A stretch of DNA of 64,000 bases from the NCBI GenBank assembly GCA_038049695.1, contig CP142456.1:78515422-78579421 (forward strand). Reading direction: 5' to 3'. Under the pieces are notes generated by a model. It was not told the DNA's origin and made no database searches. It saw nothing but the letters and a program-made list of their open reading frames with translations. Positions 7,565-49,840 of the stretch are shown piece after piece; the first letter of the stretch is position 1; every line of letters begins with the position of its first letter. Made by a program: the position numbers and the translations under genes. The stretch is from Cinnamomum chago. Lineage: Eukaryota > Streptophyta > Magnoliopsida > Laurales > Lauraceae.

Positions 7565-10500
7565 CAGGGCCGTCCCAAACTTTTTGGGGGCCTCAAGCCA
7601 AATCTTAAATTGGGGCCTTTTTTTTTTTTTTTTTAACCATTCAATACTAAATAAAATTAATATCTATGATTTTTTTACTAGAATTTCATTTTTCTTGCTC
7701 TTTTTGATGCAAAATTATTGATCAAACTTTTATAATCAATTTTCTCTAACACGTTCCTTTCAATTGATAAAATCGCTAATCCACTTAATCTTTCTTGTGA
7801 CATAGTCGATCTTAGGTAAGATTTTATCAATTTTAATTTTGAAAAAGTTCTTTCTGCAGAAGCAACTGTTACGGGAATTGTTAATAAAATTCTATATGCG
7901 ATGCATGCATTTGGAAAAGATTCTAGTTTTTTAATATAATTCAATATGTCAATTGGAGTGTTCTTGTTTTCTTCTGTTTGTATAACTTCTCTTAAAACTT
8001 TTAATTCCGAAAATAAATCTAAACCATCAATATCAATTGAATTTTCATATGTGAGAGCACTTTCGAGAGAAAGGCATTTATCTTTTAAGCTATCATCGTC
8101 AAATGATTTTAGTTTTTTGAAACTAAATAGAAAACCAAAAAGTTCTTCATATATATGAAACTGTTCAAACCTTTGCTCAATTGAGGAAATAGCTTGATCA
8201 ACTATAAATAAGAAATAATCGATTCTAAATGATTCTTCAACTGATTGTGTTATCTCGTGATCAACATTTTCATCAAAGTGTCTTTTCCTACGAATTACAC
8301 GTTTTTCTTGAAAAACCGGTTGAATTTCTAATTCTTTAGCAATCTCTATGGCTGAACTCATAGCAGTTGCAAATCCAGTTTCTCTATAATTTTTGAAAAA
8401 ATCTATAAGAGTTTTTAATTGATTTATAGCCACATCAATATGGATATCTTTAGATTGTAAGATTTTACTAGCTGAATTGACAGCAAATAACACTTCATAC
8501 CAAATAGTCAAGCTCAATAAGAACTCAAAATCTCCAAACTCATATTTTGCTAAAGAGTTAGCTTCACTTCTTGTCTTAGAATCTTGATCACTACTTTCTG
8601 CTAACTCTAACAAAGCATCCCTTATTTTTGGAGCTTGAAATCTTATAGCTTTAACACTTTCAATGCGACTTTCCCAACGTGTTTGTGATAACGGCTTAAG
8701 AGTGAATTTCGATAATTTTTTTTTTAAAATATTCCATCTCTTTGTTGAAGAAGAAAATAATGTATATAAACGTTGTACCACTCCAAAAAAAGATACAGCT
8801 TTAGTACAAGAGTTTGCCATATCACAAAGTACTAGATTAATGTTATGACTACCGCATGGTGTGTAAAATGCTTTAGGATTAATATCTAGAAGTCTTCTTT
8901 GTACACCTTGTTTATTTCCTTTCATATTAGATCCATTATCATAACCTTGTCCTCGTATGTCATTAATGTTAAGTTTAAGTTTCATTATTACATTTATTAG
9001 TTCATTAAAAAGACCTAAACCAGTAGTGACATCTACTTTTATAAATTCTAAAAAATATTCTTCTATTTTTATTGGACTTGTTGAAATATCCACGCATCTT
9101 AGTATGAGAGTCATTTGTTCTTGATTACTTATATCAGGAGTGCAATCAAGTATAATTGAAAAATATTTTGCTTCTTTAACTTTTTTAATAATTTTACTTC
9201 TAATTTCATTTGCTATCATTTGTATCAATTCATTTTGAATTTTATGACCAAGATAATGGTTATGAATTTCACCTTGTTGAATACGATGAATATGTTCTTG
9301 CATCACCGGATCAAATTCAGCAATCATTTCAATTAAACTTAAAAAAATTCCATTATTTTCTTGATAAATTTTTTCTTTTGTTCCTCGAAATGGCAAATTA
9401 TTTTTACCTAAAGTCTTTATGATTGCAATAATTCTTTGTAATACATTTTTCCAACGATCTTTCTCTTTGTTAATTAGGTCTTGAACACTTTTATCAATTG
9501 TTTTATTTTTCAATAATCGTATCTGTAAATCACTCCAAGTGTTCATATTAGTAATATGCTCACTACTTGTTTCATGTCTTTTAATTTTACCACTAATATT
9601 TCTCCAATCATTAGTTCCTTGATTAGCTAATTGATTTGTACAAGATTCCGAATTAAACAACTTGCAACAAAAACAAGATACGCTATCTAATTCATTTGAA
9701 TACACTAGCCATTTTCTATCATGTTTCTCCCCATTTGGTAAGGTTCGAGTGTAATATGAAGTAGAAAAATGCCTAGAATTTCCATCTTTAGGAAATTCTG
9801 AATCATTATGTCTAATTGGACCCTTTTCTACTAATAAATCCCTCAATTTTGAGTCAATATTTTGCCATTGAGCTGGATCATAAATATTTAAAGGCCTATA
9901 ATCAAGTGTTTCGTTAATATATTCATTTGCTTCTAAATTTTTTTCATGTTCTTCATCAAAAGTAGGTATATTAAAATTTTGACCATCATTCGATATATTT
10001 TCATTTGTATCTTTTGATTGACTATCATTAAGATTATCGTAAGTTGGTATATTACACTTTTGACTATCATTTTGAATATTCTCATTAGTATCTTTTGATT
10101 GACTAGCATTAGGATTACTTTCATTGTTATCATTCAATTGACTATCGTAAGGATTATTTTCATTTGTTGAACTATCAACTAATTTTTCTATGATATTTTG
10201 TTTATTACTGGTAACAAATTTTTCAAGAGACCCCTTTTGAGATTCAATCAATTTTTCTATTCTTTTTTTTTTTTTTAGTTTTTGATGCCCAGATTCATAT
10301 TTTCGAGGAGCCATATAGTGAAAAAAAAAAAAAACACACAAACAAACAACCAAATAACAACAAATACTTTACACAGGCAACAGCCAAAACAATATATAAC
10401 AATACTACAATAGTCAATAGTACCTAACTAACAAATAAAATTAAAATAGAAAAGTATAGAACAATAGAACCAGATTTGCTGCTTTATCCCGCTGATTTAT

Positions 10501-16742: not shown

Positions 16743-18523
16743 TTAAGGCTGTATCAACTGAGGTATGAGCTTCAGTAGAAAAGATAGTTCACGCTGAGAG
16801 AAATTAGGCCTTGTGACGGCTGCCATCTGCCCTTCTCCTTCCCTGACATGCAGTGATCCCTCTCCCTCTTCAGCTGGCTTGGTGAAATCTGAAACAGCTT
16901 CTGTGATCTCCTTCACTAGATCCACGATCACACCATTGATGCCCATCAAGTACTGCATGTAAACAGCCTCTGGAACATTGCTGAAATGCATGAAATTAAG
17001 CAACCTTGTCAGAACTGGGTTGGTTAACAAAAAAATCACTCCTGTGGTTTGACTCCTACTAAATAGGATTACACATTGATATGGAGTGGGAGCTTTTGTG
17101 GTGCTTATTATAACATACCAAACTTGGATAGAAGTATAGAACAGATGTTACATGGTAAACTATCTAAAACTAAAAGAAAGGTACAATTTTGGATCAAGCA
17201 CTTGCTTAGCCCAACAGAGTTGAGTGGGCCAAACTTTTTTCTCAATTCTAATGTGGATATGTTGTGTTTTCCATCCTCCAACAGATGGATAGGATCATCT
17301 GTAAGAGAAGATCTCGCAGCTCTATCAAGCATTTCCATGATGGCCAACAGATCAACATCCCACACTAGAAAAGTGGACCCTGAAACCTTTTGGTTGTGAC
17401 ACTGAGTACCTTCCAACTGAACTATAGGCTCCTTCCACCATGAGTCAGCTTATGTATAGGACAGAACAAATAGCAAAAAATGGCGTTAAAATTTAACTCA
17501 GTAACGAGGCCATGTTACCCAAATCAAACCCAAGTTTATGAAGGGTGGTACATAGAAAACTCAAGGTTAAATTGAAATTGTACTGATGGAAAAAGAATGC
17601 AGACATACTTCAATTGACCATAGGTTAGAAGGCAAAGATTAGCTTCTTTGAGTTTGGATATTGCTCCTGGATTTCTAAAAATGGCTCTGACTTCTGACAC
17701 TATCCCTTGCAAACCACAGGCCACGCTCAGTTTAATGGCTTCATCCAAGGAATTCCTTCTCGCATCAGTGTAAAGTTCTGATCCTCCATCCGTGAGGAAG
17801 AAAACCTGGTTTAGTCAATACCAATGTCATTCAAATAGTTTACTTGCTAACATATCCAAATCATCCAGCCAATACATCAATCAAAGATATCTTCTCCAGT
17901 TTGAGATAAAATCCCAAGATACTTCAGAACTTTCTTATATACTACTACTTAAGACCTAAGAAAATTAGTAATTAATGTAATCTATATGATTTATAAATGC
18001 CTACTCTTTGTTAGCCATATTATTCCCAGGCCAAAAATTATATATGCATTCAACAAATCACCTTGCAATATACACTTATTCTTGTAAAATCCGACCTATT
18101 TAGTATCGATACTATTTATTCCGAACAAAACTGCCCACATAATTCAAACTTTAAACCTCATTTATCAAGAGTGAGTCAAATTATAGCTATCGAAGCTTTG
18201 TAAGAGAACAGTATTCATCATTCTATCTGCTCGGGCATCTATCTGAATGGTAACCTCAAAATAGGCAGTATAGAACTTCAGTGTATTCAGGCTGTATATC
18301 GCTGTAACAATATTACTTGTAATATTTTCATAGTGGAGGCCACTCGTCTAATGGGCAGCACAGTGGTTGGACCACAGGAAAAAAGGAAGTTATGATCTGA
18401 TGGCGTGATCATAACCTCTTGACTTTAGGACTTCTGTGTGTTGGATGGGGAAAATGGCACCCATTCAGCACACAGAAGTCCTAAAGTCAAGAGGTTATTA
18501 TGATCATGCCATCAGATCAATAG

Positions 18524-18560
<37 letters not shown>

Positions 18561-21500
18561 CAGCCACTGTGCTGCCCAGTAGATGAGTGGCTCCACTAAG
18601 AAAATAATACAAGTAACAGTGTTACAGCAATAGATACTAAACAATCACTATCCACTATATTTATACAATTTATTAGCATGTCCTTATTCATTTCTGGATT
18701 CATTGAGCGAACATTAAGCAAATCAAATACAATAAATTCAATCTTCTATCCATACATCTCTGTCAACAATGAGGAATGCAAGAAAGCTGAAAGGCAGAGG
18801 GGATTTCCAACCAAAGTACCCTCAATTGCAAATTTGCAATCATACCTTTATCACATATTTCCTAAAATGCACTTATTTCCTAAAATGCTCCTATTTATCA
18901 CTAGCCTAACTATTCCACATACCGCTACTCTGCCACCACCCACTAGAAACTGAAATTTTCCATCTTGTATATATTATTTATTTCTAAGACTTCCAAGCTA
19001 TTAGATTGTAAACACAGAAACATAACCACCTTAAATTGGAAACTTGAAATCTTACAGTTACCATTATATCAAAATACTGCCAGACATCTGCATTTCAACA
19101 CTATTCATGCACTTGAATTATACTAGTTTGTGAATGCATAATATTGAAGGAAGAGCTCTTACAGGATAAACACACTGTAATTTTCGAACGAGCCGTGCTG
19201 CATCTGGTTGGAAGCTTGAAAAGATAATAGGTCTCTCTTTGGCATGTTCGAACACCACCTGTGCCAAAAATAACATGAAACAAGAAGAATTAATTTCATA
19301 AAATCAATGCTCAAAAATCCACCACAAGAGGATCCACACTTTTTGTCTGAATAGATTGAATACCTGCAAGATGATTTGAAGAACATGTATAAGATCGTCT
19401 TCTTCATAGACTACATTGTCATCAAATTTCAATTCGATGTTGAAACCCAAAGACGAGTCGACCTTCTGAAATGCCTCTTTCAATGTACAAAGTGCGTCAT
19501 CTTCTTCCACCTTCCAGCTGAAAAGCCTCCCATCTGTAGCTTTTCTAAACATTGATTTCCCCCACTACAAAAAATAAATAAATAAAATAAAATCTCAAAT
19601 GAGCTTCTATTTCCCTCATCAGTATGAAGAGATCACACCACAGTAAAGGGGAATAGATATACATTTCCAGCTTCTCTCTGGGGTCCATAGCATAGGAATT
19701 CCTGTAAAGTAAGTTCAGTAACTCGTTTCTCGGATATAGAACCCTGGAAATCAAACAGAAGAATTAAGAAAGAAGGAAATGTAGTAAAAGCAGGAGAACT
19801 GTCACTTTACACAGATTTAAAAACACCATCAGCTTGCAACCAATGTACATTCATGTTAGGGTACAAGCACTGCTAGTTTTTACCAATCAAGAAACCAAAC
19901 TGTTATAAACCTTTAAGCTGAAAATATTGGTTGATATGCTTTTAGTTTTTTTCTCAATATTTTCTTCATATAGGTTAGTTTGAACTGAGATATCAGCCAA
20001 CATTTTGGCCTCTGCAGGTGATGTAGACCTAAGAGCAATATATACAGACAGCAAGTATTCCTATCATGGGTAATATTTGGCTTGGAACTGGACTCAAATC
20101 TAAAACAGAGATCCTGTTTTGTGGGTCCACTTGGATGCCTGTCATTCAACAGGGAAAGGTTGGATTGGAAGGTAGTATTATGGATTAGAGGTTGGGGAAA
20201 ATCTGCTTGATCTGACTGTCTTATCTATAATGGATAGGATTATAATCAAGCTTATTTTTTATCCACTTGTAATCCACTGTAAACCTACCAATCCTTCTTT
20301 ACCTGCGTGATTGGTGTGCATTCAGGTGGGCCCATAAAAGTAGCTTTCAAATCTAAAACTTGTGGGTGGTTCTCATATGGACATTTGATCTCTACCACAA
20401 GTCAGAGCTCCAAGTATATGTATAGGTCTGAAAACTGTAATATTCTGTGCAGGTGGGTTAGGTGATCTATATTATCATGATGAGACTCACCAAAGATGGG
20501 AATTCTCTTAAACTGCATAGATTTTAACCTTTTGTTTCAGCAAAGTAAAACAATGACAATCCAAAATGAGAAAAAAGAACTACATTATGATTACGATTAC
20601 CAAAAAAGAAAAAAACTATTGCATGGTCTTCCATTCTGTGAAAATTTTGGAATGCTCCCCATCCACATTGGGGATCATCATATTGACCCTTTAGATTGCT
20701 TAAACTTTGCACATGGGTAGCATGTATCGTATCTGATGTAAGCCACAGACTAGATGGAAAAGCCGTGGATGTAATCCCCTTCTCTTTCAATTTTGGATGG
20801 TTCTTAAATCTTGTATTATCTCCCTATTTATAGATTCCTTGAGGATTTTCCCATTTAGCTAGTGATCCCACCATGGAATTCTTCACAGCCTGACAGGATT
20901 TTCCAAATCCTCATTCCTCATTACCTGAGGATTACTAACCTTCTGCAAGTATGCATTAAAAGGCAACTTGTCTAACATTTGATGCATCTATAAATCATCA
21001 ATGTCCACAGATTACACATGAAAAAAACTTGCTTCACTATTAAAGACAGCTTTTGTATTGGTAGGATTGGTTTATAAAGTGAGTCATTTAATACAATAGA
21101 TACGTTTGATAGAGAAATGAGTTCTAAAATTACCTCTTCTTCGGCGAGGATAAAATCGTCGTGGAAAATAATTGGACAGCTGTCTCTAGTCACCTACACA
21201 AAAAGATGAGTTTGAGATTAATTGGGTATGCAGAAAAACAAGTAATGGAAATGAGAAAATCCAAGAGCCATAATTATCTACTTGTGCAACAAGTTTGAAA
21301 GGATGAAGATATTTAAGAATTTAAAGCCTACAAATTTACTGACAAGAAATGGGAAAGATATGCCAACCAGTCCAGAGTTCTAGATACGTCCATTTGTAAA
21401 CATTCACACTTATTTCTTTTTAATTCCTGGAAACCAAAAATTTTGTTTCGTAAAACCGCATAGTCAAAACAACATCTCTATCACTCACCATTACCATTAC

Positions 21501-30835: not shown

Positions 30836-33480
30836 GGGAGGCAGTCCTATAAGGACCGTCCTCTCCTTCTCATGTAAGGACTCATCCACGCCGTCAGGGT
30901 GCGGGTCTCATTCAACGCCCCTCGTAGGCCGTATTTAATACACGGAGGGAAACCAATTGAAAAGAAAATTTTCGCTGGATCAAAAGAGAATTTGGAATAT
31001 GTCAACTTCATCTCAGCCACGTCCTCCCCACGTTCACCACGCCCTCCCCATTGTGATGTTGTCCTCCTCCAATCCAAAGCAAACCAACTTTGACGATCGA
31101 CACAGGGAAAGCGGTTCTCCTCCGTGAAAACCTCCTCATGTTTGGAGCTGGGAGTCAGTATTGGGGCCGGGTGTGGTGGGCTAATCGGGATGGGACTTGG
31201 TGAGCGGATTTGGGTGCAGAACCATTTCAATTTGTTGTTGGTGGTGGACATGGGTTTTGGCATTGGACTTGGATTTGGGTACAGCCGAAGCCAGGCTTGG
31301 GTTTCGAGTTCAGTGATTTGGGAGATTCCCTTTTCAATCCAAGAAGAAAAAGATCTGATGTTAGTAGATCGGTTGTTATCCACATTCTTGAAACTTTTCC
31401 TTTCACTTCTTTTTCTTCTATTTTTCAGTCAAATGAATGCAACTCCGTCCAAGACATGCCGTGTGATATTGTTATTCAAATCCATCAATAATGTAATGGC
31501 ATATTTTTGTCATATACATGATGAGGAATTCATGTGGAGTGCTACTTTTTTCCTTGGAACATCATGCCTAGCTCTTCTTTTAATGGTCTTCTTCCACTCA
31601 AATTCTACGAACTCAGGCTCATCTAAAAAATAACTACTGATTTGGATTAGGGGCTGAACATGTATGGCTGTTTGACAGTCTTGACTCTTGAGTGTAGACC
31701 AACTGTTTGAATTAATTAATCAAATAACAAGATTAAAAATTGAAAAACCAACAAGATTATATATGTGCAACCCGAATTTAGGTAACGGTGTCGGTTTGTA
31801 TGTTTGGGGCACCGCATACTACCCTTTCTCCTAATGTAGCAGGGACCCATGGATGAATGAAAGAATATTCAAGTGTTGAAAATGAATGAATGTACAGGTG
31901 TTTCAAAATGTCAATATGCAGTTGCAGTGATTCAAGGCTACAGGTTAAGTCTGTTACTTAATTTGGGTGCATGGTTGAGAAATCACCCAGGACAAAATAA
32001 AATCTCATGAGCAGATTGACTGCAAAAACTTAAACGATTAAATACTTCTTTATAAAAATCTCAATTGCTCATTCTCTGTACTAGCAAAGAACTATTCCAT
32101 CTCATGTGCTGTAGGGATATCTTCAAAATGCAATAACTTACTAATTTAATTTCCATTCAATAACCATTTAAAGATACACCAACCATTTTGTCACGTTTCC
32201 ATTAAAAAAATACTTCAACCTTTTGATTGAGAAATACACAATCCAATTAGAGCAACTTGAAGCAAATCAAATTACATTAATTCAATACATAACTGAATAC
32301 AGCAAGTCCAAGCAAATAAAATTACATCAATCCAATTCATATCTAAATACAACATTAACCCATATTCAACACTCAACCAAAACTCAATCTGAACAACCAT
32401 GTACATTGAAAATCACACTTGGTTTTATCCATCATCGATCATTCACATTCAACACGAACTGAATATTTAACATCAATTATCCCATTGTAAGATCAACAAC
32501 AACATCAAGTTGGCTTCACCATCAACTTCAAAATTCAACATCAACATGGCTTAACCATCACGCTTTTAGTGACTCACTGGGTCTGCACAACATAAAGTTA
32601 ATTAGGGCTTTAGGGGATTAGAGATTGGATTGGGGTTTAAGGCTTTTGGGTTCATGATTTGGGGGTTTTGGAGGTAAAGGGTTTGTGTTCGGTTATGGTC
32701 GGCTAAGCGAGAGAGGGTGAGGGATGGAGAGAGGAAAAGGGAGAAAGTAAAAAAAAATAGAAGAAGGTGAAGGAACTAATCTTAAAACAAATTAAAAAAG
32801 GAGGAGAAGGAACTAATGTTCCCTTGTACATGGCCTTTGATATGTCTTCTCTGATCCTTCTCAAAACTCATATTTGAATAGACATTTTCATTTGGGTGAG
32901 AGTTCTGATTTAATGACCAAAACCCCAAATACGAGAGAAAGAGAGAAACAAAGAAGAGGGCCTGATTTTTTTTGTTCGAATGATTGCCAAGCAGAGAGAG
33001 ACGAGGAAAAGGGGGAAAGTGCATTTCGTTCAATCGATTTGGGCTTTTTTTTAAGCGTTGGATTGGAATCGTCAGGCCAGTGATTTGTGGTGGGAGAGAG
33101 GGAGGTGAAACGGAAGGGCAGAAAGAGAGATGGCTGAGATCGTTTTGATGGTTTTCCTCAGGCACTATTTCCAGGAGAGATACGACTAAGATCACGCGGC
33201 CGACGCACTTCTCCCTGTTTTGATCGTCAAAGTTGATTTGCTTTGGATTGGAGTAGGACGACATCACAGTGGGGAGGGCGTGGTGAAGAGGAGGCGACAT
33301 ACTAGTGGATGTATTCAAATTTCAAAACCCTCTTTTGATCTGAAAGTTTTTCTGTTCATTTGGTTTCCCTCCATACATTAAATGCGGTCTACGAGGGGCG
33401 TTGGATGAGACCCACGTTCTGACGGCGTGGATGAGTCCTTACATAAGAAGGAGAGGACGGTCCTTATTGGACAGTCACCC
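30836..33480. mobile_element. MULE-like transposon with about 280-bp inverted repeats (2,645 bp)
   Basis: The left arm (30836 to about 31113) and right arm (about 33206-33480) are inverted copies sharing ATAAGGACCGTCCTCTCCTT, CGCCGTCAG, AACGCCCCTCGTAG, GGTTTCCCTCC/GGAGGGAAACC and TTTGACGATC. The element starts GGGAGGCAG and ends CAGTCACCC. A perfect 9-bp duplication, TATAAGTAT, flanks it (30827-30835 and 33481-33489), which is the Mutator signature. The 2.1-kb interior encodes no transposase; its open frames match nothing I recognise, so it is non-autonomous and could carry captured host sequence. Confidence 0.88.
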
Positions 33481-37416: not shown

Positions 37417-37770
37417 TTATTTTTATTAACTTTTTGAGAAACATCTTGTGATTCCCACTCTGACATGCACATGGGCACCAGAAATTTGGGAACCTTAATT
37501 TGATCCAATGGTGTGATTTAATGATAACTCACTTGATTAATTACTCCATCAAATTTATTTTTACTTCTCAGTACGTACTTTTGTTTTCTTTTGTTAATTA
37601 ATAAAGTCAGGTGGGCTTGTTGAGAGAGTGCATAGAAGTGTTCATGGGGCATTCTGGAGCTTGTAAAAGCCAATTCAATTTACTTATTAGGGCTAAAACT
37701 CAGGCTAGGATCAAGCCTATGGGCCTTGAAGTGAGGTCCAGTCATTGCCCAATTGAAAAGCATATACAGG

Positions 37771-38178
37771 TGGGGGTGTTCATGGACCGGGCTGGCCTGA
37801 GCCTGACCTGTGTTTGGACTAAGTTTTAGATTTCGGGCTGGGCTCAGACTAATTAATTGGGCCCATTTGATAGATGGGCCGAGACTGGATTGACTGCTAG
37901 AGAGCCCAAGCCTGGGCCAACTGTAAAAATAATTGTGAGAAAAGAGAGGGAGGCTGGACTTGAAATCATAACATTTCATTGAGAAACAACCAAACCAGTT
38001 GAGGCAGGATTTTTATATTATAATGTTAACTAGGGCTGGGCTCGGGCTTAATATGCTTCAAGAGGGGCATGCTCGGGCCAGCCAGTTATGGCCCAATCCG
38101 GGCTTGGGCCAAGAGTTCGGAAGTTGGCCTGGTCCTGTATGTCCTCAGCCCAGAGCAGCCCGACCATGAACAACCCTG
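37771..38178. mobile_element. Non-autonomous hAT element (408 bp), GGGTGTTCATGG termini
   Basis: The ends are TGGGGGTGTTCATGGACCGG and, opposite, CAGGGTTGTTCATGGTCGGG. Octamers TATACAGG (37763-37770) and CATACAGG (38179-38186) flank it with 7 of 8 matching. The interior is rich in GGGCTGGGC and GGCCCA words. A lone end of the same type (CCATGAACACCCTA) occurs near 35328. Confidence 0.75.
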
Positions 38179-38444
38179 CATACAGGCCATTGTGTTAATT
38201 AGCCAGTCTAATCTTGGCGTTTAAGTATATAAATTTCCCCAGCCCAGCCCATTGAACAATCGAACCAGAAAATTAGACCTGGTAACAATCCATTGCCCAA
38301 TGGCCCCAATCCAAACTCAATGTGAACCACGCTCTGGGGCATATCACTATTTACAATGCATGAAGATTGCCAAGTAAAAATAGTCATGCATTACCAAAAC
38401 TCCACCCCATCGGTGCTTCTCCACTACTAATCCTCTCTCTATCT

Positions 38445-38453
38445 CTATAAAGA
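38445..38453 (+). promoter_or_regulatory. TATA box of the aspartic protease copy
   Basis: CTATAAAGA lies about 70 bp upstream of the ATG at 38522, in a pyrimidine-rich leader. The promoter appears to have survived although the gene is rearranged, so the copy may still be transcribed. Confidence 0.5.
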
Positions 38454-38521
38454 ACACAAAAGCCACGCTTCCAAGTCCCAAGTCCCAACTCGTCTTCCTC
38501 CCCTAGTCCCTTTGTTTAGCC

Positions 38522-39465
38522 ATGGCTGCTTCTGCTCCTCTTCTTCTTGCCATGTTACTATTCTTCTGTCTACCCTACAACCTCATCGCCGCTGGTTTCA
38601 GTGTCGAACTCATCCACCGTGACTCCCCCAAGTCCCCATTTTACAACTACTCCTCTGAAAGTGAAAGCATCTCTGATCGGTTGTCCAGAGCAATCCAACA
38701 ATCCAATTCTCGAGTTGAGTACTTTGTTAATTCTAGCTCTGCTGCCACCCTGATCAAAGGTGTGTCCTCCAGTGTGCGGCCTGGCCATGGAAATTATCTC
38801 ATGGCCATATATCTCGGCACCCCCATTTCATCAAAATCATACCCAATCTTGATGCTTTGTTGCGCAATGCTTCCAATGACAAGAGTTAATAGAGTCTGAC
38901 CCAAAGAAGGCAGCACAAGTCACATTCTCATCCACCGGAACAAAAGTATTTAAAGGCCCCAGAAGCAATTCATCAGCCCCATCAATCCCAAACTTCAAAT
39001 CGGGAACGTTGAAATCTTTCCCATACTCGTAGCAGAGATAGAAGTTGTTAGATGGGTCTTGTACTGGTGCGAGATCAATGGCACCCTTCAACACAGACAA
39101 AAGCTCAATGTAGGCTTGGGTGGGAAGATAGGTAAGAGTTGTGCCCGAGCCTACATTGAGCTTGGTGCCATTATCTCGCACCAGTACAAGACCCATCTAA
39201 CAACTTCGATCTCTGCTACGAGTATGGGAAAGATTCAACGTTCCCGATTTGAAGTTTGGGCTTGATGGGGCTGATGAATTGCTTCTGGGGCCTTTAAATA
39301 CTTTTGTTCCGGTGGATGAGAATGTGACTTGTGCTGCCTTCTTTGGGTCAGACTCTATTAACTCTGTCATTGGAAGCATTGCGCGACAGAGCATCAAGAT
39401 TGGGTATGATTTTGATGAAATGGTCGTGGCGTTCCAGCCAACAGATTGTGCCCATGATCAGTAGG
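38522..39465 (+). pseudogene. CDR1-like aspartic protease, internally rearranged
   Basis: Plant CDR1/nepenthesin-like proteases are secreted, about 430 aa, with two catalytic Asp motifs. The start here is normal: signal peptide (MAASAPLLLAMLLFFCLPYN), then FSVELIHRDSPKSPFYN, DRLSRAIQQSNSR and GNYLMAIYLGTP. After LGTP the frame runs into an inverted copy of the gene's own 3' end and stops at 38897-38899. The first DTGS motif and the whole central lobe are missing. The true 3' end follows on the plus strand: LKFGLDGADELLLGPLN, TCAAFFGSDSINS, GYDFDEMVVAFQPTDC and a stop at 39463-39465. In the inverted copy (minus strand) the second catalytic motif reads GSGTTLTYLP where the family has DSGTT. The protein cannot be a functional protease. 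Confidence 0.88.
38823..39423. repeat. 601-bp near-perfect palindrome within the protease copy
   Basis: The left arm (38823 to about 39116) and right arm (about 39148-39423) are inverted copies of the protease 3' coding region. The spacer is about 31 bases (39117-39147). The arms differ by a few substitutions and by about 16 extra bases in the left arm (around 39086-39101). Transcription from the upstream promoter would give an RNA with a stem of about 270 bp. Confidence 0.9.
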
Positions 39466-40274
39466 GTTGTGATGGACTCAGGCAACACTCTTGTTTTTAT
39501 TTTTATGGTTTTTAGTTGTACTTTTGTTTTTTATATATAGATATATGCATGAATATGTAAGAATGGTTGGGACTGAGTTGTACTTTCAGCCTCTTGTTAA
39601 TAAAACTGTGTGTTTAAGATTTCTAGGAACTATTTTGTTCCTCTTAGGTTAGTTTGGTTTCTCTTAAAAAAAAAGCAGAAAACAAGCTGGTTAACAATTA
39701 TGATGCCAATGTATCCAGCACTTAGTTGAAAATAAAAATGCATATTTCCTCTTTCACTTGGTGGTTTCTTGATAATAAAAAATGGATCAAAACTGATATT
39801 TCCTCTCAGTTGGTGGTTTATTGATCAATAAAAAATGATCAAAATGAACATTTCCTGTTTCACTGGTTCAACCTCATGTAGTTAAAAATTATCACAGAAG
39901 CCAGAGGAATCCAGGGGATGTTAATAGGTGAAAGATCAATCCAAGAAAAACTGATTGTACAGAACAGCGGTGTTAAAAGGCAAAACATACTTTTAGATGC
40001 CAAATTAATCTAACCAATTCTTATGGACATACAGTTAGCTCTATGATTACTTTCTTTACATACACTTTTCCCACCATCATTAATGCTGGAAACTATTTTT
40101 ACAGCTTGACATTTCAGAGCTCAACTATATTTAGTTCTGCGGCCAGGCAATTTATGAACAAGAGACGCCATTTATACTCTGAATAAAGTTTAAGAAACTG
40201 AAGTACTGAAGAAAGAGAGATCAACAAAAATTTTACAGGAAAGCTGCAGAGTATGACTGGAGGATACAGTGCAT
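39466..40274. other. 3' flank of the protease copy, no gene recognised
   Basis: The bases after the stop include AATAAAACTG at about 39599, a possible polyadenylation signal for the protease copy. Beyond that there are only A/T-rich sequences, including a loose repeat built on TTTCCTCTTTCACTTGGTGG (about 39740-39870). Confidence 0.5.
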
Positions 40275-40590
40275 CTATGGGGCCCATTTGGGCCCACCTT
40301 TGGTCCGAACAGCTCCTTTGATAATCTTGTGGTCCCATTACAAGACCTCAGGCTTATTCTACACCTATTGAAGACTCGCGTTGGATTGAATCTTAAATTA
40401 ATCTACAATTAAGACATCATTAAACTTTAAGATTTTTAAATTAAGGACTAGGATAACCTAGTGGGGCTGATTTTAAGTTTTGTTTCCCCGCTTTTTATGT
40501 GGAGACCTTTCCATCTCCCCTCCTCCGGTCGTCCCATTGATACATACATACACACATCTCTAAGTGGGCCCCATGAACTGGATTGCATCT
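40275..40590 (+). repeat. GGGCCCAC dispersed repeat, copy 3
   Basis: It starts TATGGGGCCCATTTGGGCCC, continues through TTTGGTCCGAACAGCTCC and GTTGGATTGAATCTTAAAT, and ends TAAGTGGGCCCCATGAACTG. It is close to copy 4 in its left part and to copies 1 and 2 in its right part. Confidence 0.65.
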
Positions 40591-42008
40591 TACCAAGATG
40601 CCATCTGCGGGGCCCACCTATTAAAATTTAGTAAGAGCATAGCTCCTATTTTCTGCCGGGCCCACCTGTTGAAATCCAAACCATTCAAGATAAATGGCCT
40701 CTAAGTATGTGGGATATCCTCATCTTTTATGTCAATATGGATTCTTTCCACTGTTGGATCAATTTTCTGATGAAAAACGTGATATTGAATATGCATAAGA
40801 TTGTGCAAGTCACATTTCTTTTTAATCAAACAGTCTTGTGTGGGTTTAGTGGGTACTTCCCAAGGAATTAGTCCTCAAAGGTCTCAAAGATGGCCATGTC
40901 ATTATAATTCAAATAAAAAAGTCAATCCAAAGGTGAAAAAAACTTGAATTGACGTAAAATTGGAAGAACCCCATATAAGGAAAGGAGCTTTTATCTTTGA
41001 CGATTCAGATTTCAATAGGTGGGTCTCATTGTGGAGATCCAATGTTTTAATTCAAAATTTTTCAAGGTCAAAGCCTCAGGATCTAGATTCTTTTCTAATT
41101 TGATCTTCTCCTTTTTTTTTTATTGTTAATTAAAAACACAACATCAACACTACATAATTACGTTGTTCAAAATCTAATACCAGTGTTTGAGAAGGAAAAG
41201 AAAACTGGCCATCTACAATCAAAATATATTATAGACGTATGACTCGATTTCGAAATTGAGCTCTAATTTCGCAAATGATTGCAAAATTGGAGCTCAATTT
41301 CGATTTCAATTTTAATTTGAGGAGAGATTTTAGGGATTTGAGAGAGATTTTCGATTTTAGTCATCTAAATATAGAGTCCAGTACATTCAACACATTTATT
41401 TAGACTTTTAGATAAAGATGGTTTCTCATGTGGTCTAAAAAATATTCTTTCTAACATATAAGGATACACATTGCATAGATCTATGGTCATAAATTATAGA
41501 TCTATGGTTAAATAATTAATTTAAAATTAATTATTTAAAATTATTTTTTATTTTTTAATATTATAAATTATATTGCCCGCAATAAACACGGGCGTGTTTT
41601 GCTAGTTTCTATTTATAGTTCCATTTGGGGCTTTCTAATTACTTGTTTGGGTAAATTAATACTAATTTACATGCATTACTAATTTGGGTCGGGCCAGGCC
41701 GGGCTTTGAGCTTTATATCACTTAATTCAAGCCCAGCCAATATATTAAACAGGCCAAAATCGACATCCAAGTGCAGCCCAAAGTGTGCTGTTGCACGCTT
41801 ACTTAAAAGTAGGAGATAGGCCCGCTGTGGGCATCAAATTGATCACATAATACATGGATTCTTATTCATGCATTTTACATGTGATCAATTTGAAGCTTGT
41901 GCCAAAAGATCAAAATTGTTCGGAGCCCAAAAGAGAGAGGGACATGTATATTTTGAGGGAGAATGTTCTGCAACAAGCAACCTGCATATTGCTTATATGA
42001 AGTTCAAC
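40591..42008. other. Intergenic, no gene recognised
   Basis: A/T-rich sequence. Near 41575-41606 the word GGGCGTGTTTTGCTAG (opposite strand CTAGCAAAACACGCCC) resembles ACTAGCAACAAAGGCCCGG near 53611 and may mark one end of an unclassified element. Confidence 0.4.
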
Positions 42009-42272
42009 TTGTGGGGCCCAGGAGGAGTGGAGATAGAAAGGTCTCCATATAGAACGGGGGGAGCAAAAAAAACAACCCCATCAGGGTATCCTAGCCCTTG
42101 ATTTAACAACATGAAAGATTAATTGCATCTTAACTATGATTTTTTTTTAGATTCAATCCAACGGTGAGTGATGGTTTAATGAGTGTAAAATTACGTCTAA
42201 TACGATATAGAGGGATGATAAAAGTATCAAAGGGGCTGTTCGGACCAAAAGGTGGCCCAAATGGGCCATAGA
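42009..42272 (-). repeat. GGGCCCAC dispersed repeat, copy 4 (inverted)
   Basis: On the minus strand it reads TATGGCCCATTTGGGCCACC, then TTTTGGTCCGAACAGCCCC, the CACTCACCGTTGGATTGAAT block and ATATGGAGACCTTTCTATC, ending in a GGGCCCCAC word. Its orientation is opposite to the other three copies. Confidence 0.65.
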
Positions 42273-43478: not shown

Positions 43479-44039
43479 ATGGTGTGGGTTCCTTTCTATG
43501 AATTTCTTCCCACCAAAGCCAGAGAAAAAGAGATTCAAGACAAAGGAGCTTCAAGTACTCCATCTTTGTTGGGTTTTACATTCGTTCGAAGTGAGATTCG
43601 TGAGAGCCCAGTGATTGATTTTTTTGCGCAATCGGAGCACCAGCTGAACAACCACCCTCAACAAGAGGAGGATCACCACAGGCCACCGGTTTGGGATATT
43701 GTCAAGAGTCTGACGAAGAGCGACGTGGGTCAGCTGTGCAGGATGGTATTGCACCATGACCACGTCACGACTTTCTTCCCCAAGTGGGATCCTACTGCTG
43801 TGGAGAGGATTAAAAATGAAGGGTTGCGAGTTCGTGTGCTTATCAAAGATGTAGATACTCAATTCTCTGCTCACTGGGTGGTATTCCGCCGTTGGAGATC
43901 GAACAGAATGTACGTGATTCAATCTGGATGGCGCCCAGAATTCGTCGTCAGGAGGAAATTAAAGGAAGGTGATGAGATTGGATTGTGTTGGGACTCAGAG
44001 CAGTGGTGTTTCTTGTTTTCGGTTCTGAAGCGCGCTTAA
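43479..44039 (+). CDS. B3-domain protein, 186 aa
   Basis: The first ATG (context TCAATGG) gives MVWVPFYEFLPTK; the open frame reaches 13 codons further upstream only through a non-ATG codon. Residues 1-70 are a variable N-terminus ending in a His/Gln/Glu/Pro-rich linker. A B3-type DNA-binding fold occupies about 72-184: IVKSLTKSDVGQLCRMVLHH, FFPKWDP, VRVLIKDVDTQFSAHWVVF, MYVIQSGW..FV, RKLKEGDEIGLCWD and WCFLFSVL. The single-exon layout and size match the small plant-specific B3 group (REM or At2g/At3g-type B3 proteins). B3 proteins act as sequence-specific transcription factors in the nucleus, but the target here is unknown. The stop is followed by an ordinary 3' flank. Confidence 0.85.
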   Translation: MVWVPFYEFLPTKAREKEIQDKGASSTPSLLGFTFVRSEIRESPVIDFFAQSEHQLNNHPQQEEDHHRPPVWDIVKSLTKSDVGQLCRMVLHHDHVTTFFPKWDPTAVERIKNEGLRVRVLIKDVDTQFSAHWVVFRRWRSNRMYVIQSGWRPEFVVRRKLKEGDEIGLCWDSEQWCFLFSVLKRA

Positions 44040-47812: not shown

Positions 47813-49840
47813 ATGGTGTTTACAAGGGCTGTTGCATCATCTTTATCTCCAATTGAAACTTTAACTTCAATGAGAACTGCTTTCAAATGGGGTACTGCAA
47901 GTTTTGATCTTTCTATATCCTCCCTCACTCCTGATGACTTTTCTAATAAAACCCAGTTCGAAAATCATGTTGAAAGACTATGCAAATCAGGAAATCTTAG
48001 CCTTGGTGATGCCTTACAGCTGTTTGATAGAATGCTTGTTATGGAACCTAGGCCATCAGGTGCTACTTTCACTCATTTGATTAGAGTAATGGCCAAGATG
48101 AAACAATATACTACGGTGATTTCTTCCTGTAAGATGATGAATTTGGTTGGAACCCAACTTGACTTGCTTTCACTTAACACCCTGCTTAATTGCTTCTGCC
48201 ATTTGAAGCGGGTTGATTTAGGCTTTGCGGTTTTCGGAGATGTCCTGAAACGGGGTTATGAACCTGATGCCGCGACCTTTGCAACTCTAATTAAAGGACT
48301 TTGTGTGGTTGATAAGGTGAATGATGCAATGAAACTGATTGCGAAAGTGGGAGAGATGGGGTACCCGCGTAATGCAATTACGTATTCTACCCTCATAAAT
48401 GGGCTTTGCAAGGCTGGGAACATTGAAGGGGCGCTTGGTTTGCTAAAGGAAATGGAGGAGGGAAGAGCTTGTGCACCCAGCATGGTGGCGTATTCCACAA
48501 TCATTGATGGCCTTTGTAAAGGTGGATTGGTGAAAGAGGCCATGGACCTCTTTATGAGAATGGTTAACAAGGGGTATCCCTGTAATGTAGTTACATATGG
48601 AGCTCTTGTGAATGGCTTTTGCAAAATGGGAAATACCGGCATGGCTCTAGGGTTGCTGAAGGAAATGGAGAAAGGATCATGCAAGCCAAATGCAATTGTG
48701 TATAACACCATCATTGATAGTCTCTGCAAGGATGGATTGATAGATGAGGCTATTGGCATCTTTAAGGAAATGCCCAAAGGTGGCATTTCGCCAAATGTTG
48801 TAACCTATAGCTCTTTAATTCATGGCCTTTGCACTTCAGGAAAGTGGAAAGAAGCTAACAGATTTTTTGATGAAATGATTGGCCAAGGAATCTCGCCAGA
48901 CATGGTAGCGTTCAACATATTGATGAATGGTCTATGCAAAGAGGGAATGCCTGAAGAAGCACATTCAATCTTAAAACTGATCATTCAAATGGGTGAGAAG
49001 CCTGATATGCAGACATGTAATACACTGATGAATAAGTATTGTCTGAAAGGCCAAATTCATGAGGCAAGGAAGGTCTTTGATTCCATGATAGGTACAGGTC
49101 TTGAGCTGAGTACTGTTAGCTACGTCGTGTTAATTAATGGGTATTGCAAGAGTAGGAGAATGGATGAGGCTATGATGCTCTTTGAGGAAATGCATCGAAA
49201 GGGATTAGTGACTGATGTTATAATTTACAACTGTCTTTTAGGTGGATTGTGCAACAATGGTAGAATAAGGATGGCAGAAAATATCTTTAAGGAGATGCAG
49301 TCTCATGGCCCAAGTCCTAACCTAATTACATACATTGTATTTTTGGATGGGCTTTGTAAAAATAAAAAAATGACAGAGGCATTGAAAATATTTCAAATGA
49401 TGATTAGCTCAGGAATCAAACCTGATGTTACAATTATCAATATCCTCATTGATGGCATGTGCAAAGATGGAAATTTTGAAGCTGCGAAGGAAATATTTGA
49501 TGGCATGTCACAATATGGTTTGATGCCCAATGCTATTACATACAATATAATGATTAATTGCCTCTGTAGAAAAGGATTAATGCAAGATGCTAATGAACTG
49601 TTGTTACAAATGGAAAAAAATGGTCGTGTGCCTGACAGTTGGACTTTAAATCCAATCATCCGTGGCTTTTGCGGACAAGAAGAGGTGGACAAAGCAATGG
49701 AATTTCTACATATAATGGCCAAGAAAGATATCCTTCCAGATGAAAAAACTGCTGCTATTGCAGTTGACTTACTTTCAAAGGATGAGAAGTATGAAGACCG
49801 TTTAAAATCTCTTCCTACATTTCCATGTAAGAGTGGGTAA
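47813..49840 (+). CDS. P-class PPR protein, Rf-like (RFL) type, 675 aa
   Basis: An intronless, complete frame. Residues 83-643 form 16 back-to-back PPR motifs, all 35 aa except the fourth (36 aa), each of the form xxTYxxLIxGLCKxGxxxEAxxLFxxMxxxGxxPN/D. A partial motif precedes them (FENHVERLCKSGNLSLGDALQLFDRM, 49-74). The N-terminus is Arg/Ser/Thr-rich with no acidic residue before Glu15, consistent with a mitochondrial targeting peptide. The C-terminus has LLSKDEKYEDRLKSLPTFP, typical of restorer-of-fertility-like proteins. No E, DYW or PLS motif is present, so RNA editing is unlikely; such proteins bind single-stranded organelle RNA and direct cleavage, stabilisation or blocking of translation. 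No premature stop is seen. Confidence 0.92.
   Translation: MVFTRAVASSLSPIETLTSMRTAFKWGTASFDLSISSLTPDDFSNKTQFENHVERLCKSGNLSLGDALQLFDRMLVMEPRPSGATFTHLIRVMAKMKQYTTVISSCKMMNLVGTQLDLLSLNTLLNCFCHLKRVDLGFAVFGDVLKRGYEPDAATFATLIKGLCVVDKVNDAMKLIAKVGEMGYPRNAITYSTLINGLCKAGNIEGALGLLKEMEEGRACAPSMVAYSTIIDGLCKGGLVKEAMDLFMRMVNKGYPCNVVTYGALVNGFCKMGNTGMALGLLKEMEKGSCKPNAIVYNTIIDSLCKDGLIDEAIGIFKEMPKGGISPNVVTYSSLIHGLCTSGKWKEANRFFDEMIGQGISPDMVAFNILMNGLCKEGMPEEAHSILKLIIQMGEKPDMQTCNTLMNKYCLKGQIHEARKVFDSMIGTGLELSTVSYVVLINGYCKSRRMDEAMMLFEEMHRKGLVTDVIIYNCLLGGLCNNGRIRMAENIFKEMQSHGPSPNLITYIVFLDGLCKNKKMTEALKIFQMMISSGIKPDVTIINILIDGMCKDGNFEAAKEIFDGMSQYGLMPNAITYNIMINCLCRKGLMQDANELLLQMEKNGRVPDSWTLNPIIRGFCGQEEVDKAMEFLHIMAKKDILPDEKTAAIAVDLLSKDEKYEDRLKSLPTFPCKSG

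Follow-up and report, generated by a model that had tools for sequence, protein, structure and literature searches.

Within the window, a stretch of 64,000 nucleotides of contig C6 of Cinnamomum chago, positions 38522-39464 hold a pseudogene of a CDR1-like (TAXi-type) aspartic protease, the sole member of this family found on that contig. Some 640 bp from the middle of the coding sequence, with the first catalytic Asp among them, have given way to the gene's own 3' end in inverted orientation, so that the order is now 5' coding part, inverted 3' end and direct 3' end. We take the family to be CDR1-like from the preliminary description of the locus and from the architecture generally associated with that name, rather than from a comparison with a CDR1 sequence. 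The features are as follows:

38360..38521, + strand: core promoter and 5' UTR (TATAAA, pyrimidine-rich stretch, start context), by likeness to intact paralogues
38446: TATAAA upstream of the start codon, by its position in the sequence
38522, + strand: start codon of the protease pseudogene
38522..38823, + strand: kept 5' coding part in open frame, encoding the signal peptide and the propeptide and reaching as far as the GTP motif that precedes the catalytic domain
38824..39149, - strand: inverted copy of the gene's own 3' end (repeat search, gapped alignment, Pfam TAXi_C at 5.7e-09)
39121..39143, + strand: spacer of 23 nt, part of the inverted copy (gapped alignment)
39144..39464, + strand: direct 3' end with the stop codon (gapped alignment; Pfam TAXi_C at 2e-08, 39234-39464)
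39467..39490, + strand: possible third gene fragment, from the second-Asp region, directly 3' of the stop codon (19 of 24 bases identical to the intact paralogue L011, position 929)
39599..39604, + strand: AATAAA, possible polyadenylation signal, by its position in the sequence

When aligned to the paralogues, the window copy retains coding positions 1 to about 300, that is, the signal peptide, the propeptide and the GTP motif, and the mechanically called open reading frame that starts at 38522 continues into the inverted sequence, to 38899. The inverted copy, which is antisense in any transcript of the + strand, runs from the region of the second catalytic Asp-Ser-Gly almost to the C-terminus. 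The direct 3' end starts about nine codons beyond the second Asp-Ser-Gly motif and ends with the stop codon at 39462-39464; it shares 39144-39149 with the end of the inverted copy, and shows a 15-nt loss and 1-nt losses relative to the other arm. The junctions of the rearrangement are at about 38823-38824 and 39148-39149. In the paralogues some 640 bp separate the positions of the two breakpoints (the GTP motif lies at 282-303 and the second Asp at 915-945), which means that the pseudogene has lost most of the protease fold along with the first catalytic Asp. The stretch at 39467-39490 may be a third small fragment of the rearrangement, or else plain 3' UTR; its match to L011 is suggestive only, being equalled or bettered by six of 600 control stretches of the window (0 of 40 in a smaller set).

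The arms of the predicted stem, 38824-39120 (297 nt) and 39144-39422 (279 nt), were delimited by gapped alignment; 274 of the 279 aligned bases are identical, with five mismatches and gaps of 15, 1, 1 and 1 nt, or 89% identity with gaps counted. Without gaps, the arms resolve into the pairs 38815-38881/39365-39431 (93%), 38882-39013/39234-39365 (99%), 39013-39075/39173-39235 (98%) and 39101-39120/39144-39163 (95%). The computed RNA fold of 38522-39465 has a free energy of -615.8 kcal/mol, as against -263.4 kcal/mol (sd 8.2) in 20 shuffled sequences, none of which folded as well (z = -43), ruling out chance. Repeat search, alignment and folding therefore bear out the inverted repeat at the position where it had first been described, as well as its few arm mismatches and the junction near 38823; the arms, however, are longer than the 270 bp or so originally given (279-297 nt), the spacer measures 23 nt and not 31, and the second junction, placed at about 39130 in that description, falls by alignment at about 39148-39149.

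Across the whole window, 10 inverted pairs of at least 40 nt lie within 3 kb of each other; three belong to the protease hairpin, whose 132-nt pair (99%) is the most exact of all ten. Nested pairs are also present at 30836-33480 (76 and 133 nt, 87-92%) and at 40281-42267 (49, 56 and 96 nt, 75-84%), about 1.5-2.4 kb apart and perhaps representing the ends of mobile elements, and a foldback at 18297-18632 consists of two nested 42-nt pairs (88 and 93%) around a 10-nt centre. Other features of the window are an open 878-aa frame for a hAT-type transposase (7678-10314, - strand; DUF4371 and Dimer_Tnp_hAT), an open 675-aa frame for a PPR protein with many repeats (47813-49840, + strand), and a 186-aa frame (43479-44039, + strand) with a B3-like domain slightly below the Pfam cut-off (27.8 of 30.1 bits).

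The reading of the locus as a copy of a CDR1-like aspartic protease, made in the preliminary description, holds as regards the TAXi type. In Pfam, TAXi_C is recognised in pieces of both arms (5.7e-09 and 2e-08); for the 5' part (38522-38823) no family passes its threshold, and TAXi_N is absent from the window copy. The first catalytic Asp motif is missing as well, which places the copy outside the two-Asp definition of the A1 family and marks it as a pseudogene of the CDR1-like family. A search of the genome (1.06 Gb, 14 contigs), in which 22 candidates were scored, returned 36 matches, all but a few of them clustered on C3 (125.44-125.61 Mb) and C5 (69.56-69.85 Mb), with two on C12 and the locus itself. 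For comparison, 18 family loci were retrieved, five of them in the C5 cluster; ten (nine on C3, one on C5) each contain one uninterrupted frame of 425-437 aa, which in L015, one of the ten, extends to 454 aa from an upstream ATG, and a complete frame of this kind is absent from the other eight. All ten intact paralogues have DTGS and a second DSG/DTG motif, and both of those scanned with Pfam, L009 and L011, contain TAXi_N, TAXi_C and Asp. The 5' part of the pseudogene has tblastn matches in 14 of the 18 loci (E<=1e-5). By sequence, the PDB yielded nothing beyond two weak matches (E about 1), both to xylanase inhibitors, and none of nine pattern-matching stretches in viral contigs encodes a relative of the protein by tblastn. 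CDR1 itself is an apoplastic A1 protease in Arabidopsis defence (PMC5855861).

Several observations suggest that the gene was functional before it was rearranged. Against the ten intact paralogues, dN/dS is 0.29-0.52 for the 5' part and 0.22-0.37 for the inverted arm, values that average both lineages of each pair, so that part of the constraint belongs to the paralogue; dS of the remaining parts is 0.65-1.3. No frame damage shared by the two arms was seen. Taken together, the dN/dS values and the lack of shared damage suggest a formerly constrained gene, probably a long-separate member of the family that was under constraint until recently. The retained promoter of the preliminary description was also recovered: in a comparison by eye, both the TATAAA at 38446 and the pyrimidine-rich 5' UTR correspond in position to those of L009, L010 and L011, the closest paralogues in this region. 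Further upstream, at about 37771-38179 (about 0.34-0.75 kb from the start codon), lies a dispersed repeat for which the genome gave 45 further match rows, by appearance a hAT-like short element; its ends are GTGTTCATGG.../...CCATGAACAAC, and ATACAGG is found on both sides (by eye). Nowhere else in the genome was the 3' flank (39440-40200) matched.

Apart from the locus itself, the top-scoring of the 22 candidates in the genome are 73-74% identical to the arms, and one 93-bp stretch matches the 5' part at 78%. The arms, in turn, are 89% identical to each other, and the inverted arm must therefore stem from this gene or from an allele of it; derivation from another paralogue is rejected, as the best-scoring ones are only 73-74% identical. 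An origin as a retrocopy is not argued here, because the intact paralogues, too, consist of single open frames. Both junctions show 2-nt matches by eye, CC at 38823-38824 and AG at 39148-39149; template switching would be expected to leave such matches, though ones this short also arise by chance. A comparison by eye with the paralogues suggests that the direct arm has lost the 15 nt and one base at each of two of the 1-nt gaps; the inverted arm has gained 1 nt and carries at least one private substitution. Substitutions between the arms number four or five in 279 sites, the first mismatch being at the junction. Rates of 2-7e-9 per site and year suggest an age of roughly 1-5 million years for the inversion, which would seem more recent than it is if gene conversion had taken place between the arms.

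Inverted repeats are a known class of assembly and library artefact, and the hairpin might accordingly be a fold-back chimera of a single read, or a mis-join; the 1-nt gaps, taken alone, could be sequencing errors. We consider this very improbable. The arms differ by five substitutions and a 15-nt gap besides the three gaps of 1 nt, and the changes are distributed over both arms when set against the paralogues; such separate decay is unlike a fold-back read. In addition, the arms are bounded inside the gene, with about 640 bp missing, and the best-scoring genome candidates include no uninverted, near-identical copy. The artefact explanation is thus weakened, and the differences on both sides, together with best genome matches of only 73-74%, speak for a real and fairly young self-inversion. 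In the structure and origin of the locus as described we have high confidence.

The preliminary description had suggested that small RNAs from the hairpin could act in trans on functional relatives, and matches to such genes were looked for. All 305 21-mers of the antisense arm (38824-39148) were scored against the ten intact coding sequences with a plant target scheme (mismatch 1, G-U 0.5, doubled at guide positions 2-13; cut-off <=4). A score of <=4 was reached by 110 of the 305, 81 of which are clear of the 15-nt insert, and each of the ten paralogues has at least one such predicted site, two of them only at 4.0. Six windows match L011 perfectly, all of them overlapping the 15 nt lost from the other arm, and hence they lie partly outside the paired stem. 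As controls, the reversed arm gave 0 of 305 and each of 20 shuffled arms gave none at <=4. When the matching region of each intact gene was scored in the same way against the other nine, however, the proportion of windows at <=4 was 0.36-1.00, as compared with 0.36 for the antisense arm, nine of the ten paralogues being above it and the tenth equal; the unpaired 5' part of the locus gave 71 of 283. Thus, the complementarity is real and sufficient on paper, but homology alone explains it, and it bears no sign of selection for regulation.

These figures bear on the view that siRNAs from the antisense arm measurably lower the mRNAs of intact CDR1-like genes, which would make the locus an emerging negative regulator of a family of defence proteases. 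Predicted sites in ten of ten intact paralogues and the perfect windows in L011 are in line with it; the paralogue controls, and the overlap of those perfect windows with sequence that the other arm has lost, count against it. Regulation of CDR1-like genes in trans is possible, and as a description of what the locus does we regard it as unlikely. The earlier suggestion therefore survives as regards the presence of complementarity, which is no better than homology gives, to paralogues that are at best 73-74% identical.

Plants convert long hairpins of this type into small silencing RNAs. The course of events that we favour, and to which we would give an even chance, is that a broken protease gene yields a hairpin transcript and that the resulting siRNAs act mainly in cis, possibly also weakly on relatives. 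A formerly working CDR1-like gene on C6, its working state deduced from dN/dS, would have been hit by a rearrangement, most likely when replication or repair switched templates at 2-nt matches. With the promoter and the 3' end still in place, any transcript would carry both arms and fold, its order being 5' part, antisense 3' end, loop of 23 nt and sense 3' end, with a computed stem of about 280 bp. If the locus is transcribed, Dicer-like enzymes would probably cut the stem into siRNAs of 21-24 nt, and production of siRNAs from the hairpin is plausible on this basis. The siRNAs would act mainly on the locus itself, through RNA-directed methylation and loss of the transcript, and possibly, weakly, on related CDR1-like mRNAs. 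The hairpin form would then be a by-product of gene death, at the stage where some young MIRNA genes are thought to begin. A less probable, but serious, contender is an inert pseudogene, rearranged as described and either untranscribed or transcribed too weakly for siRNAs to matter. The dispersed repeat upstream of the start codon, which could favour a silent promoter, and the decay by indels in both arms are in keeping with inertness; the TATA box and 5' UTR that have been kept, and an upstream stretch like that of intact paralogues, are not.

In its form the locus is one of a known kind, the hairpin pseudogenes, a proposed start of some MIRNA genes. In rice, Low glutelin content 1 is reportedly an inverted repeat of tail-to-tail gene-family copies that form a hairpin RNA; silencing of the gene family is said to have been demonstrated there, whereas the hairpin described here is deduced from sequence. 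Inverted pseudogene pairs of rice give hairpin transcripts, and one of two pairs has a 185-nt duplex with mapped small RNAs (PMC2708354). The Cinnamomum locus has the anatomy by which hairpin-forming pseudogenes are defined there, namely pseudogene parts in opposite orientation, a stem of >100 bp and a loop of <2 kb; it differs in its loop (23 nt, against 1,283 in rice), in that small RNAs were mapped in rice, and in that its arms come from one gene by self-inversion with its own promoter region kept. MIR161, MIR163 and MIR1444 are given as MIRNA genes born by inverted duplication of their target genes (PMC5223194); they have in common with our locus an inverted part-gene copy, arms similar to a family and predicted sites in its members. 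Their short mismatched foldback contrasts with the long, almost perfect stem seen here, and the Cinnamomum hairpin would represent an earlier stage, if it is on that path at all. Rfam gave nothing above threshold for 37500-40500, where two sub-threshold matches scored 22.9 of 53.1 and 22.6 of 90 bits. Another long plant hairpin locus, Tpd1 of Teosinte Pollen Drive, produces 22-nt siRNAs that target another gene with strong effect (PMC11390486); expression, target and effect were demonstrated in that system, and the present locus is known from its sequence. No publication describing a hairpin derived from a CDR1-like gene turned up in a narrow literature search.

A second inverted repeat exists in the family. 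At L017 (C3:125586500-125589000), a family member's promoter and 5' coding part lie opposite a second promoter-plus-5'-coding end of the family in inverted orientation, with inner arms at 502-901 and 1187-1638 (76% with gaps) and outer arms at 179-469 and 1941-2229 (84%); this repeat is older and less regular than the hairpin on C6, as judged from its arms. L017 is the only one of the 18 loci with an inverted repeat labelled as family sequence; L025 has a 44-bp inverted pair that may or may not be of family sequence, and L009, L011, L016, L019 and L023 have short self-palindromes only. In 180 kb of C3 there are four close inverted pairs, two of them at L017, one of which is labelled family sequence. 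Convergent transcription at L017 would also give double-stranded RNA.

The strongest version of these ideas, that a new hairpin locus under its own defence-gene promoter produces siRNAs that damp the whole CDR1-like cluster, is in our judgement a decidedly long shot; if it were true, then together with L017 it would mean that this protease family repeatedly makes its own RNA silencers by inverted duplication. The conversion of a gene into a hairpin has been caught here fairly soon after the event, with the promoter region, both arms and ten intact relatives available in one genome. The locus thereby makes the inverted-duplication route to siRNA and MIRNA loci testable and, if it is expressed, would reveal if an identity of about 73% is already enough for a long hairpin to silence its relatives.
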